DNA from: Pseudomonas sp. P8_229 | GTDB lineage: Bacteria; Pseudomonadota; Gammaproteobacteria; Pseudomonadales; Pseudomonadaceae | Assembly: GCF_034008635.1 (NCBI RefSeq) | Contig: NZ_CP125378.1 | Span: forward strand, 4,092,501-4,156,500 | DNA length: 64,000 nucleotides | Reading direction: 5' to 3' | In this document: positions 10,123 to 22,320 of the stretch, piece after piece | Layout: the number at the start of each line of letters is the position of its first letter | How positions within the stretch are numbered: the first letter of the stretch is position 1 | The notes under the pieces: model-generated | The model's input: only the letters and a program-made list of their open reading frames with translations | Database searches by the model: none | What the model was told of the DNA's origin: nothing | Made by a program: the position numbers and the translations under genes

Positions 10123-10216
10123 ATTGTTTACTCCATAAAATCGATTGGTTAGAGGCACGAACGCTGTGTCGTTTCACTCTTGTTTTTGTCTCGTATCCCG
10201 ATGGCGCCGCGATCCC

Positions 10217-10308
10217 TTGTAGGAGTGAGCCTGCTCGCGATGAGTGAGAGTCAGTCGACATCAGTGTTGAATGTCAGACCGCAATCGCGAGCAGGCTCAC
10301 TCCTACAG
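10217..10308. repeat. REPIN inside the alg operon (algF-algA junction)
   Basis: REP units TGTAGGAGTGAGCCTGCTCG and CGAGCAGGCTCACTCCTACA are inverted around a spacer. The hairpin would be transcribed as part of the alg mRNA between algF and algA. Confidence 0.9.
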
Positions 10309-10336
10309 GGGGAGCCGCGTCAGTCAGGAAAAATGA

Positions 10337-10993
10337 TTAGCGAGTCGACACCGGGCGTTTCACCCAGACTGGCGACAGGCTGCTGCCGGAACCGGTGACG
10401 TACAGCACTGCGGCCTCACCGCGCTCCAGGGCGACCGGTTTCACGTCGCCGACTTTCTTGTCGCCTTCGTACAGCGCGAGGCTGACTTTCACCGGGTTGA
10501 TTTCACGTTCGCCACGGCCCTTGGCGGCCACGTTCGGCACCACGTCGGTCTTGCCGTCGGCGGTCTTCAGGGTCAGCGGCTTGTCGCTGAGGTTCTGTAC
10601 CCGCACCAGGGATTTCTGCTTGTTCTTGAACGGCGGCTCTTCGATCAGTTGCGGCGCGCCGGAAGCGTTGTTGACCAGGGTGTAGTAGTGGTCACCGGCG
10701 AGTTTCACCGGCAAGGTCTGGCTGCCGATCCTGGCGCTGTAATCACCGCCCGGCATGAAGCTGAAGTCGCTGCTGGCCAGTGGCGCAACGTCGCTCAGAT
10801 TAGTGCTGCCGACGGTGGCGCTGACTTCGGCGTTGCTGGCGTTGTAGACCCGCACGAAGGTCGAACCTTTCGGTGCGGTCGGGCCGTAGAGCGCAGCATC
10901 GCCACCGGCGAAAGCCTGGACCGACAGCACGCTGAGGCCAGCAACCAGTGCGAAGCTTTTAGCGAGACGACGAGGAGTAGTCGTGAAAGTCAT
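10337..10993 (-). CDS. algF: AlgF, alginate O-acetylation protein
   Basis: This 218-residue periplasmic protein is needed for O-acetylation of mannuronate together with AlgI, AlgJ and AlgX. A signal peptide (about residues 1-29, ending VQAFA) precedes 'GGDAALYGPTAPKGSTFVRVYNAS', the conserved AlgF opening. No catalytic residues are known; the protein is thought to help relay acetyl groups or hold the complex together. It lies 14 bases after algJ, so it is cotranscribed. The length matches the family (about 216). Confidence 0.97.
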   Translation of the reverse strand: MTFTTTPRRLAKSFALVAGLSVLSVQAFAGGDAALYGPTAPKGSTFVRVYNASNAEVSATVGSTNLSDVAPLASSDFSFMPGGDYSARIGSQTLPVKLAGDHYYTLVNNASGAPQLIEEPPFKNKQKSLVRVQNLSDKPLTLKTADGKTDVVPNVAAKGRGEREINPVKVSLALYEGDKKVGDVKPVALERGEAAVLYVTGSGSSLSPVWVKRPVSTR

Positions 10994-18151: not shown

Positions 18152-19633
18152 TCAGAAGCGCCAGATCACGTCGATGAACGCGCGGTGCATGTACGAATCA
18201 ACCTGCTTGCCATAGGCATCGCCCGGTTTGAACACGCCGCCACGCAAGCGCACCAGCGCCGACGGTTCATCGATCGACTGGCTCAGCGCCGCCGGCAGCA
18301 GGCCTTGCTTGAAGTACTTGGTGACCACCAGGTCCATCTCCTGACCCAGGTCCTTGTTGCCATCCTGCAGCGGCAGCGAGGTGCTGGAGAGGATCGCGCC
18401 GGTGACGTCGTCGGTGTTGTTTTCCACGGCGTTGATGCCGTTGCTGCCCACCGGCTTGTTGCCGTCCACGCGCCAGAACTTGTGGTAGATCAGGCTGGCG
18501 TCGTACTGGTCGTTGAGCATCCACGAACCGAACAGGGTGGCGGTCTGCATGTTGCTCATTTCGCCACGGAACGCTTCGCCGAAGCGGTGAACGCGTGAGC
18601 GCGTACCGGTGTAGTTGGAGCGGTTGCTCTCCAGACCGTTCTGTTGGTAGTCGGCGCTGGCACGGGCATACGCCGCGCCGACCTGCCACTGCGGATCGAG
18701 GCGCAGACGCACGCCGAGGTCGGTGGCCCAGCCGTTGATGTCGTCGCTGCGCTTGGCTTGTGCCGGGCGCGTACCGTCGGCGTTCAGCGCGTTGACCGTG
18801 TCGCGGTCGCCGCTCATGCCGGTGATGCTGCCCCAGTAGTTGACGGTGTTGGTGTTGCGCCAGTTGTAGGCGTCGCTGTCGGCGGTCAGGCCGAGCCAGC
18901 TGATGTCGCCGTTCTGGGTTTTATCGAGGGTGTCGCGGGGCACACCCGGTTCGGCGTAATCGAGTTTGCCGTCATCGTGGGTGTGGTGGCCGCGAATGCC
19001 GACCCAGTTACCCGGTGCCCACTGGTAGGCGGCATCGGCGTAGGCGTGCAGGCGATCCTTGTCTTTGGGGGCCAGTTCTTTCAGGTCGGTGCGGTATTCG
19101 CTGAAGCGTTCGGCGACGCCGACGTTGGCGCGCAGCAGGGTGGTGTCGAACGTCCAGTTCAGCGCTTCGATGTTGGTGTCGCGCCATTGGCCGTCGTCAT
19201 TGCGCAGGCGCTGGCGACCGAACTTGAGCATTTCGCCCGGGTACGGCGTGAAGCCGCTGTAGCCGACCCAGAACTCGCGCATCGCCAAGTAGTTTTTCTT
19301 GGTCTGGCGGTCACCGCTGTCGGTGGTTGCGGCGCCATCGGATTGCTGCAGGGTGTCGGTCTCGATGATGTCGGTGGAGGTCACGGCCTGGCCCATGGCG
19401 TAGGCGCTCCACGCGCCGCTTTCGCCGTAGATCCACGGACGCAGGTCCAGGCCCACACCGTTGACGTCGCCACCGGGTGCGGTACCGAGGTCGCGGTCGT
19501 CTTCGGACTGGCCGGTGATTTTCACTTCCAGGCCGAAGTTCTTGGTTTCGGTCATCGCGGCCAGAGTCGGGCAAGACCAGATCAGCGCGAACGTGAGGCC
19601 AATACCGGCCTTCACAAAGGGATTCAACTTCAT
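18152..19633 (-). CDS. algE: AlgE, outer-membrane alginate porin
   Basis: This 493-residue beta-barrel exports alginate across the outer membrane. A signal peptide (about residues 1-25, ending TLAA) is followed by alternating amphipathic strands rich in Tyr, Trp, Arg and Asp, including the plug-forming loops typical of AlgE, and an aromatic C-terminal residue (…DVIWRF) needed for barrel assembly. Its ATG overlaps the algK stop (ATGA at 19630-19633), so AlgE and its lipoprotein partner AlgK are made in step. Confidence 0.97.
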
Positions 19634-21141
19634 AGGGATTCCTCGCCGTCTTCTTCTTGCAGGGCGTGCAGTTGCAGCGTGTTCTGGTTCAGGGCGCCAC
19701 GGCTGGCCTGTTCCTGTTGCAGCAGGCGCTGGGCTTCGGCCAGACGCTCGGGCGGCAATTGCGCTGCGAGGGTGGTCGCCAGTTCATCGGCTTGCGGTGT
19801 GTTCTGTGCCTTGGCCAACTGGCTGAACACGTAGGCGTTGAGCGGGTCGGGCTTGGTGCCCTTGCCTTGGGAAAACAGTTGGGCGATGGCGAAATCGGCG
19901 CTGTTCTGGCCGTTGCGCGCAGCGGTCAGCAGATGGTCGAGAGCCTTCTGCGGATAGACCTTGCCCAGATATCCACGGCGATAGATCTGGCCGAGGTAGT
20001 AGTCGGCGGCGACTTCACGGCCGACGGCTTTCTGGAAGTGTGCTTCGGCGACTTTCGCATCGGCCGGGACCATTTTGCCTTCGTAGTAGAGCTTGCCCAG
20101 CAACAGTTCGGCGCGCGGCTGGTCAGCGGCGCGGCCGTTGTCGAGGTACTTCATCATCTGGTCGACGTCGCCCAGTTCCGGGAAATCGTAAAGCAGTTGC
20201 GCGAGGGTCACCCACGACGCCGGGTAGCCCGGGGCGATCGGTTCGAGCAGCGCTTGCGCGGTCTTTTCGTCGGTCTTGCCCAGGGTCGAATCAGCCAGTA
20301 CACGAGCCACGGAATCGATCCGCTGCGCGGTGACGCTGCCACGGCTGTAACCAGCCTGCAGCTGCTTGATCAGCTCGGCCTGTTGCTCCGGCTGGGCACG
20401 TTTCTGATAGACCGTGGCCAGTTCGACGTAGCAGATGTCGGTGGTGTTGAGTGCGGCTTTGCAGATCTTTTCCACGTCATCCAGATGCTGGTCGTAAGTG
20501 CCCTGGGTGCGATACAGCAGCACCTGGGCCAGACCCGCTTCCGGATAGCCGGATTTGCGCCACTGATCGATCTGCTGCTGAGCGTTGATGTTGGGGAAGC
20601 TGTGCGGGTATTGCAGGTACAGCATCGCCAGTGGGATCAACGTGTTGCCTTCGCCATGGGCGGCGGCTTTTTTCAGCAGGCTTTCGGCCTCGTGGTGCTC
20701 GGCTTCGGTGGAACCTGGTTTGGCCACCAGCAGGCGACCGAGACGGGCCTGGGCCCGTGGCGACACGTCGGCGGCGGCGCGGTAGGTCGCTTCGGCCTGT
20801 TTGATCTGCTCGGGATCACGGCTGTCGACCTGAATATCGGCGAGGCCGACTTGCGCCTCGCTGTAACCCAGGTCCGCCAGCGCACGGTAGTTCTGCGCGG
20901 CGGTGGCGGTGTCACCACGCTTGAGTGCTTCGTTGGCCAGACGTTGGTCAGGCAGGCCGGCGCAACCGGCCAGAGAGACTGCTAATGCAACTGCACACAG
21001 AGGACCCATGTGGGAGCGGGCTTGCTCGCGAAAGCGGTGTGTCAGCCCACACTGATTCTGAATGTTGAACCGCATTCGCGAGCAAGCCCGCTCCCACAAG
21101 GGCTGCGGCGTATTCAAGAGAGTTGGAGTAGTCACAGGCAT
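19630..21141 (-). CDS. algK: AlgK, outer-membrane TPR/Sel1 lipoprotein, with REPIN-encoded N-terminal insert
   Basis: AlgK is a lipoprotein scaffold with about nine Sel1/TPR-like helical repeats that guides AlgE to the outer membrane and links it to AlgX. The lipobox SLAGC follows a hydrophobic stretch. Upstream of it a REPIN (21009-21098, 90 bp) is read in frame as 30 codons. The ATG at 21141 lies nine bases after the alg44 stop with GAGG close by and would give 503 residues with the insert before the hydrophobic core. The ATG at 21009, formed at the repeat edge, would give 459 residues but has no ribosome site and no basic residues before the core. I favour 21141, with moderate confidence about the start. 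Confidence 0.93.
21009..21098. repeat. REPIN inserted in frame in the algK signal region
   Basis: REP units TGTGGGAGCGGGCTTGCTCG and CGAGCAAGCCCGCTCCCACA are inverted. The span is 90 bp, exactly 30 codons, so the algK frame from 21141 stays open. On the coding strand it adds several Arg and Cys residues ahead of the lipoprotein signal. Confidence 0.92.
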
Positions 21142-21150
21142 GTCCTCGAC

Positions 21151-22320
21151 TTAAAGACCGGCAGCCATGGCTTTGTCGATCAGCCAGTTCAGGTTCGGAC
21201 CACGGTCGCTGTTCACTTCCACCGGGCGACCGGCGAAGGTGCTGTCCAGCGGCTCGTCCGGCTGGATCTGCACGCGGATGTCGGAGGACAGGTCGGCGCT
21301 CTTCAGGCTGGTGCTGCTGATGATCTTGCCGGTGCGGGTCTGGTCTTCGCCGGCGATCTGGAAGCTCACCCGGGTGCCCGGACGCACGTCGCCGAACTGG
21401 CGATAAGAGAAGCGCGCATCGACGGTGGCCTGGGTGTTGCGCGGTACCAGGGTGAAGATCACGTCGCCCTTGCTCGCGTACTGCCCGTCAGCCACCAGTT
21501 GCTGGGCGACGGTGCAATCGCAAGGGGAGGTCAGGGTGCCGGTCATCTGCTTGCCGAACAGTTCTTCAACCTTGGCCGGTTGCAGTTGGTCTTCGTCCAG
21601 ATGGCCCTTGAGCACGTCGAGCATGCTGGTGCTGAACGTCGCCAGCGGTGCGCCTTTGGCCGCAACACCGTCGGACTTGACCAGGCTCTGCACGGTGCCG
21701 TCGCGCGGCATGGTGATGTTCATCCCCGGCACGCTGACCAGGCCCGCCTGCGCATGGCTGACGAAGTACATGCCGTACACCGACTTGAAGACGAAACCGA
21801 ACGCGACCAGACCGATGGCGAACACCCCGGCGCTGAAGGTCACCGCTTTCAGACGGCCGAACGGGGTCATGCCGTGGCCGCCGTCCTTGACCTTGCGCGC
21901 CTTGGTGAAGTTGTCGCGCTGCAGGGTCGCCAACACTTCACCCATGCTGACGATATCGCCGGCCAGGTGCGAAGTGATCAGGTGACGCAGGGTCGAGATG
22001 TCCTGTGGCTCCAGGTTCTGGAACTGGCAACCGGCGCGGCCGGTCTGGCGGTCGTAGGAACGCACTTGCAGTTCGACATCCATGGCCAGGCCGAGGTTGT
22101 CGATCACGAACTGCAGACGCGCCTTGTACACGTCGCCGGCCTTGAGCGGCAGTTGCCCGGCGTTGAACGCCAGACCTCCGGCGGACAGATCGAGGACCCG
22201 CGCTTCGACTGGCGTCCGGTCTGGGCCGAAGAACCGCAGTTTGGCCGGGATTTTTACCCGGGCGTGCTGGCGCTGAGCTTCAGATTCATGCACTACGTTG
22301 GCGTTGACGGCGGTATTCAT
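21151..22320 (-). CDS. alg44: Alg44, c-di-GMP-binding alginate polymerase subunit
   Basis: This 389-residue inner-membrane protein has an N-terminal cytoplasmic PilZ domain, one membrane helix (about residues 160-182) and a periplasmic HlyD-like domain. The c-di-GMP ligands are present: Arg17 and Arg21 in RQHAR, and the DLSAGG motif at Asp44-Gly49. Binding of c-di-GMP activates polymerisation by Alg8, so this is the post-translational control point for alginate. It lies between alg8 and algK in the usual order. Confidence 0.97.
   Translation of the reverse strand: MNTAVNANVVHESEAQRQHARVKIPAKLRFFGPDRTPVEARVLDLSAGGLAFNAGQLPLKAGDVYKARLQFVIDNLGLAMDVELQVRSYDRQTGRAGCQFQNLEPQDISTLRHLITSHLAGDIVSMGEVLATLQRDNFTKARKVKDGGHGMTPFGRLKAVTFSAGVFAIGLVAFGFVFKSVYGMYFVSHAQAGLVSVPGMNITMPRDGTVQSLVKSDGVAAKGAPLATFSTSMLDVLKGHLDEDQLQPAKVEELFGKQMTGTLTSPCDCTVAQQLVADGQYASKGDVIFTLVPRNTQATVDARFSYRQFGDVRPGTRVSFQIAGEDQTRTGKIISSTSLKSADLSSDIRVQIQPDEPLDSTFAGRPVEVNSDRGPNLNWLIDKAMAAGL

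Follow-up and report, generated by a model that had tools for sequence, protein, structure and literature searches.

An in-frame REPIN in the algK leader of Pseudomonas, probably translated as part of the signal peptide

The algK locus and its repeat

In the window (the whole stretch of 64,000 nucleotides analysed, from Pseudomonas sp. P8_229), algK lies on the minus strand between alg44 and algE (Table 1). Along that strand, the alg44 stop is followed by GTCGAGGAC, by ATG (21141) CCT GTG (21135), by a leader that carries a REPIN, by a hydrophobic core, and by mature AlgK. Because alg44 and algK almost abut, there is no intergenic space for an insert. The ORF 21141..19630 is open across the REPIN and comprises 503 codons when counted from the ATG. 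The mature protein is conserved, as judged by phmmer comparison with PDB structures, where it matched 3e4b (AlgK) with E 3.7e-254 and also chain B of 7ula. The lipobox reads LAGC and is directly preceded by LCAVALAVS. Bacterial lipoprotein signal peptides consist of a basic n-region, a hydrophobic core and a lipobox ending in Cys, and on motif inspection the AlgK leader appears to be built in the same way.

Table 1. Positions of the features of the algK region in the window
Feature	Position	Strand	Basis or remark
alg44	21151..22320	(-)	end lies 9 nt ahead of the algK ATG
Shine-Dalgarno-like GAGG, 5' of algK	21144..21147	(-)	8 nt ahead of GTG in 181/184 haplotypes; only 2 nt ahead of ATG 21141
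ATG, start according to the ORF list	21139..21141	(-)	both start choices present in databases
GTG codon, most likely the true algK start	21133..21135	(-)	Shine-Dalgarno spacing and haplotype comparison
REPIN, two inverted REP arms of the GTGGGAGC class, in frame within the predicted AlgK signal peptide	21009..21098	(-)	fold, copy number, frame conservation, substitution pattern
Predicted signal-peptide hydrophobic core and lipobox (Cys codon 20964-20962)	20962..21006	(-)	sequence; similar cores in translated relatives
Mature AlgK, alginate export TPR/Sel1 lipoprotein	19630..20964	(-)	phmmer to PDB
algE, leader without insert in the window; in-frame palindromic inserts at four other loci	18152..19633	(-)	ORF list; leader comparison

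The insert (minus-strand sequence TGTGGGAGCGGGCTTGCTCGCGA ... TCGCGAGCAAGCCCGCTCCCACA) is 90 nt, or 30 codons, long and consists of two inverted, hairpin-forming REP arms, with a 24-bp outer stem and a folding energy of -65.2 kcal/mol (z -10.6 compared to shuffled sequences). It is a dispersed repeat of high copy number, with at least 92 two-strand matches in the P8_229 genome at E <= 0.001 (40 of the 601 first-look candidates scored) and at least 150 translated matches (150 of 1016 candidates scored). Two genes in this genome match PF01797 (Y1 transposase) over the cut-off and REPs adjoin both: one (L290) is flanked on either side by GTGGGAGC-class arms, together with the other class, and the second (L291) has the other class only, so that a putative cognate RAYT gene flanked by matching REPs is present. 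In all these respects the element is a REPIN; its location, apparently inside the coding sequence of algK, is not the extragenic one typical of REPINs. These results bear out the first-pass annotation, which had described a complete 90-bp REPIN in frame in the algK leader, and whose 30-codon arithmetic, stop-free frame and 14-residue N-terminus were correct. Elsewhere in the window, a REPIN of the other class (TGTAGGAGTGAGCC) occupies positions 10214-10311, in the gap between an algF-like ORF (10337-10993) and an algA-like ORF (from 10158 down), both names being assigned from sequence.

Taken alone, a single in-frame case is unremarkable, because 9 of 36 other REPIN units of the same genome, found by pattern at sampled loci, would pass in the algK frame by length and freedom from stops (8 of 34 if two units that look like joined or overlapping matches, one of them within the nine, are set aside); it is the comparison of relatives that is remarkable. 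Among the 150 translated matches that were scored, 15 have a stop-free open frame of at least 200 aa, algK included, and 11 of the remaining 14 were fetched for inspection. Three of these were rejected as coding REPINs because the Pfam domain (LytB/IspH, acyltransferase and permease, respectively) starts 3' of the repeat, and by eye each has its own Met between repeat and domain. Seven more (L281-L283, L285-L288) were discarded as antisense-like by eye, and the open frame across the REPIN at L280 gave no Pfam match on scanning. Mechanical frames spanning sampled REPINs are numerous among the P8_229 loci; in four that reach gene-like sequence (L253, L258, L266, L267), the gene probably begins 3' of the repeat, judging by eye. 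The open frame at L253 runs into another lipoprotein-like signal (VNLRALSVAALLLLAGC). We claim no second coding REPIN among the matches examined in this genome.

Reading frame, start codon and substitutions in relatives

When the DNA of 57 relatives was searched for the algK junction, 14 gave a match over practically its whole length, REPIN included. The 240 loci examined comprise 30 from this search, 80 from named species (the best 80 of 246 relatives found), and 30 and 100 from a genus-wide search covering 298 genomes, 269 of them with AlgK. These loci represent the nearer part of the genus, that is, the relatives closest to the P8_229 algK, and the haplotypes are therefore not independent. 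They collapse to 202 haplotypes with 200 distinct leader sequences. Two haplotypes were excluded from the tree and the REP-arm counts, hence the 200 scored: L117, which contains an N and was counted in the frame tally as the sole out-of-frame row, and L010, for which the automatic anchor failed and the leader is in frame by eye. In L010 (genome G034), algK falls into two matches, indicating a frameshift or an assembly error downstream of an intact leader.

A REP-type arm is present in the leader of 168 of the 200 scored haplotypes under a simple pattern that misses a few, among them L189 as well as L211 and L229, which carry the other REP family. The altered leader is thus not peculiar to the P8_229 AlgK, as the first-pass annotation had supposed: relatives have the same repeat together with a conserved upstream start, precisely the observation that it had named beforehand as speaking against its reading, and the idea of a strain-specific disruption of algK was dropped because relatives share the insert. 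Of the 32 haplotypes in which no REP-like arm was scored, about 25 just have a short leader, and so the insert is dispensable.

The conserved upstream GTG motif was found in 184 haplotypes, and in 183 of these the leader is in frame to the lipobox and free of stops. These 184 leaders come in 26 different lengths, 25 of which are in frame, the exception being L117 with its N; outside this set, 17 haplotypes with different leaders were read by eye, and L010 completes the 202. The substitutions within the REPIN, compared in 47 disjoint pairs of similar leaders to a simulated null without pairing between the arms, are of the coding type. Third positions account for 76 of the 164 changes, compared to 55.5 +/- 5.8 in the simulations (0 of 300 as high), and synonymous codons number 58, compared to 42 +/- 5.4 (2 of 300 as high). 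Conversely, there are 83 non-synonymous codons as against 108 simulated, and no stop was created, as against 7.4 +/- 2.6 simulated. Of 687 changes in the 150 nt that open the algK core, 614 fall at third positions, and hence the constraint on the REPIN peptide is much weaker than that on the mature protein, as expected for an n-region.

The position of the start codon was assessed across the same haplotypes. A spacing of 8 nt separates the GAGG motif from the downstream GTG in 181 of the 184. The ATG position, two codons 5' of the GTG, is occupied by TTG in three haplotypes and by none of ATG, GTG and TTG in five (of which L189 has another layout), a one-sided comparison because the motif search demanded GTG and the reverse loss was uncountable. 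The better Shine-Dalgarno spacing of GTG 21135, and its retention in some haplotypes that lack the ATG, tell against ATG 21141, which had been taken as a start. In the region downstream of the repeat, 14 of the 167 REP-bearing haplotypes have no in-frame ATG, GTG or TTG at all. At a distance of 12 or more residues from the Cys, 32 lack a start, 91 carry an ATG, and 10 have a start with any Lys or Arg after it. On these numbers, initiation at ATG 21009, the other start considered initially, was rejected as the rule. Judging from these sequence comparisons, the start is probably GTG 21135 rather than either ATG. Database records use both upstream starts, for example, P0010 (ATG) and P0016 (GTG), both named Irchel 3A7, and AlgK proteins with the REPIN peptide are already present in databases as ordinary annotations.

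Because the frame is kept, the changes are of the coding type without stops, and the downstream stretch lacks a start in some haplotypes, ribosomes most likely read through the REPIN. The proposal that the repeat is translated, made from the P8_229 sequence, is thus well supported by the relatives. The long basic n-region envisaged ahead of the lipobox is supported as well: the net charge of the n-region averages +3.2 over the long leaders (n = 165) and +1.2 over the short ones (n = 18), it is not positive in only two of the long leaders, and the last Lys or Arg lies 13-23 residues ahead of the Cys in 163 of the 165. Our best inference is that the REPIN now provides much of the positive charge of the n-region.

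Turnover of inserts in the algK and algE leaders

The content of the algK leader varies extensively among the relatives. We observed swaps of one REPIN type for another (LWELACQR...[14 protein letters not shown]...EQARSH and mixtures), elements nested in another frame (L093, L107, L115, L194, L243, L245), decayed or partly deleted elements (L204, L216, L217, L237), REPIN-free leaders (e.g. L053, L065), and REP pairs in the opposite arrangement (L027, L028, L032, L197, L248), the last kind also being found in P0066 (named P. protegens). In genome G082, the algK leader contains a different REP family, with both arms exact matches to a 19-mer that occurs at 237 places in that genome at up to 2 mismatches, compared to 2 for the reversed control; in G094, there are 93 such places compared to 1 for the control, and the leader holds a diverged copy by eye. 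This second family may be REPb, reported from P. chlororaphis and Pf-5 (PMC3390384). At all these loci, an open frame leads from an upstream ATG or GTG to the lipobox.

Leaders also differ between otherwise near-identical loci: in 24 same-length pairs with at least 97% flank identity, the median leader identity is 0.84 and the 10th percentile is 0.39. Across 123 leaders, many different pairings of left with right arm type were seen. Fitch counts, which rest on a 450-nt tree, ignore recombination and are indicative only, gave 94 length changes and 19 presence changes. Five loci from several species (L023, L055, L063, L065, L066) share a REPIN-free leader peptide (MPVTSPIRILPVPLTLAMAIALAGC), with an algK core 96-98% like that in the window, which suggests that recombination replaced the leader. 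A short GAGTGC..GCACTCG palindrome lies ahead of the REP in L027, L028, L197 and L248, and occurs without a REP in L175; it is perhaps the remnant of an older element.

Across the named loci (80 loci, 588,938 bases), 71 algK leaders match the arm pattern, 59 with both arms and 12 with one, and nine do not; elsewhere the pattern is found only in the first 146 bases of 10 loci. Exact 15-mer inverted-repeat clusters in the same loci (~7.4 kb each) mark 47 algK leaders, one algE leader (L082) and 26 upstream edges, the latter taken to be the spacer before alg8, and nowhere else, in a scan that misses imperfect palindromes such as those of L102 and L107. The algE leader has the common short form in 120 of 127 loci (a redundant set), a slightly longer form in two, and a 42-residue form in L293; in-frame palindromic inserts are present in L082, L102, L107 and L292. 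The insert of L292, from G082, belongs to the REP family that is also found in the algK leader of that genome, and the palindrome of L082 is different.

Interpretation and comparison with known systems

Taken together, these results suggest the following scenario. Presumably mobilized by a RAYT transposase, a REPIN would have entered the segment encoding the algK n-region in an ancestor of many species of the P. fluorescens complex, and insertions that kept the frame would have survived. Since then, the ribosome would translate the REPIN as an Arg-rich n-region of ~40-55 residues, most likely from GTG 21135. Selection would guard the open frame and, as a rule, a positive charge, while the leader sequence would go on changing through recombination with other REPINs, through nested insertions and through deletions. 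The n-region would be disposable because it is removed together with the signal peptide. We assign a probability of about 0.8 to this reading, that is, a REPIN inserted into the n-region, kept in frame, translated, and tolerated since the leader is discarded. The comparison of relatives supports in-frame conservation, coding-type changes, the absence of downstream starts in some lineages, and the occupation of this site by two or more REP families; we infer transposition and its age, cleavage of the signal peptide, and that the insert persists because it is tolerated, not because it is beneficial. Individual leader variants may stem from transposition or from recombination.

The alternative that the REPIN is extragenic, with algK beginning after the repeat (at ATG 21009 in P8_229) and the upstream starts misannotated, appears highly improbable. 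It would accord with the ATG at the repeat edge, with the 91 haplotypes that have a suitably placed ATG after the repeat, and with the general suggestion of misannotation for many N-terminal REPs in PMC3733652. However, it leaves unexplained the preserved frame, the coding-type substitutions without stops, the lack of any downstream start in 14 haplotypes and the rarity of one followed by a basic residue, as well as the conserved GAGG and GTG 5' of the repeat, which also precede REPIN-free leaders; moreover, the sequence immediately upstream of 21009 sits in the stem.

Two other explanations attribute the persistence of the REPIN to benefit, from the hairpin or from recombination, which is possible. 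The 24-bp stem, ~12 codons past the start, could slow ribosomes or stabilize or process the alg mRNA and so set the amount or targeting of AlgK, an idea that draws on the great stability of the stem and on the predominance of two-armed elements in the named loci (59 of 80, with one arm in 12). Nevertheless, the stem is no evidence of selection in algK because REPINs form hairpins wherever they are located; given also the nine loci that match no arm and the decayed or shortened forms (e.g. L204, L216, L217, L220, L221, L237), we consider this explanation improbable. Somewhat less doubtful, albeit still unlikely, is a role of the REPIN as a recombination module whose shared arms allow exchange of leader alleles within and between genomes. 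The strong leader differences between near-identical flanks and the many arm combinations are consistent with such exchange, but it follows from the repeats themselves and requires no selection, and the comparison of leaders was ungapped, such that some of the low identities are alignment shifts.

The best reading of the data, then, is that REPINs find a safe harbor in the cleaved n-region of an operon whose genes are tightly packed. This points to signal-peptide leaders as places where mobile repeats of this kind can land safely. A broader version, which we advance tentatively and consider somewhat short of an even chance, is that n-regions are a general safe harbor in gene-dense operons, and that several unrelated REP families have repeatedly settled in frame in the leaders of algK and algE and become domesticated, with the element contributing export charge and perhaps a translational pause. 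Thus, algK offers a well-sampled bacterial case of a mobile palindrome as coding sequence over many species, with a suggested reason for its persistence, namely, that the encoded peptide is discarded, and makes the question of tolerance versus exploitation of such inserts by leaders testable. It also serves as a warning that N-terminal REPs are not to be called misannotation without a test of the frame. A literature search, with most subscription papers and preprints outside its reach, returned no recognized description of a REPIN in algK; the one paper that contains both 'repetitive extragenic palindromic' and 'algK' has floc formation in Shinella as its subject (PMC9012009).

Several known systems share features with the AlgK leader. 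The extended signal peptide regions of autotransporters have an unusually long basic n-region ahead of an ordinary hydrophobic core, an organization that the AlgK leader resembles; to our knowledge, these regions are not derived from mobile elements. Like the REPINs of P. fluorescens described with their RAYTs in PMC3116915, the algK element consists of two inverted REPs, forms a hairpin and is present in many copies in a genome with RAYT-like genes, and its arm GTGGGAGCGGGCTTGC is one base off the SBW25 group I 16-mer. However, the abundant REP 16-mers reported there for SBW25 are mainly extragenic, with only 14 of 1,067 occurrences overlapping genes, whereas the algK element appears to be coding and in frame across many species.

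Intragenic GTAG REPs have been described in several species, with dimers or grouped repeats encoding 20-30 residues (PMC3733652), and algK similarly presents REPs and REP dimers inside an ORF. In contrast to the N-terminal REPs suspected there of being misannotated, the algK frame was tested over ~200 haplotypes, and compared to the cases described in that study, the site is probably a cleaved leader and is used by more than one REP family. The palindromic elements of Rickettsia (RPEs) likewise enter protein genes in frame (PMC10969869, a review); the algK REPIN parallels them as a mobile-type palindrome in frame inside a protein gene, by analogy only. Unlike RPEs, which according to this review hit many unrelated genes, REPINs here repeatedly use one leader, plus that of algE in some genomes, and the peptide encoded in algK should leave with the signal peptide. 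In-frame intragenic REPs and Rickettsia RPEs are therefore already known, and what is new is the recurrent docking of such elements in a signal peptide across many species.
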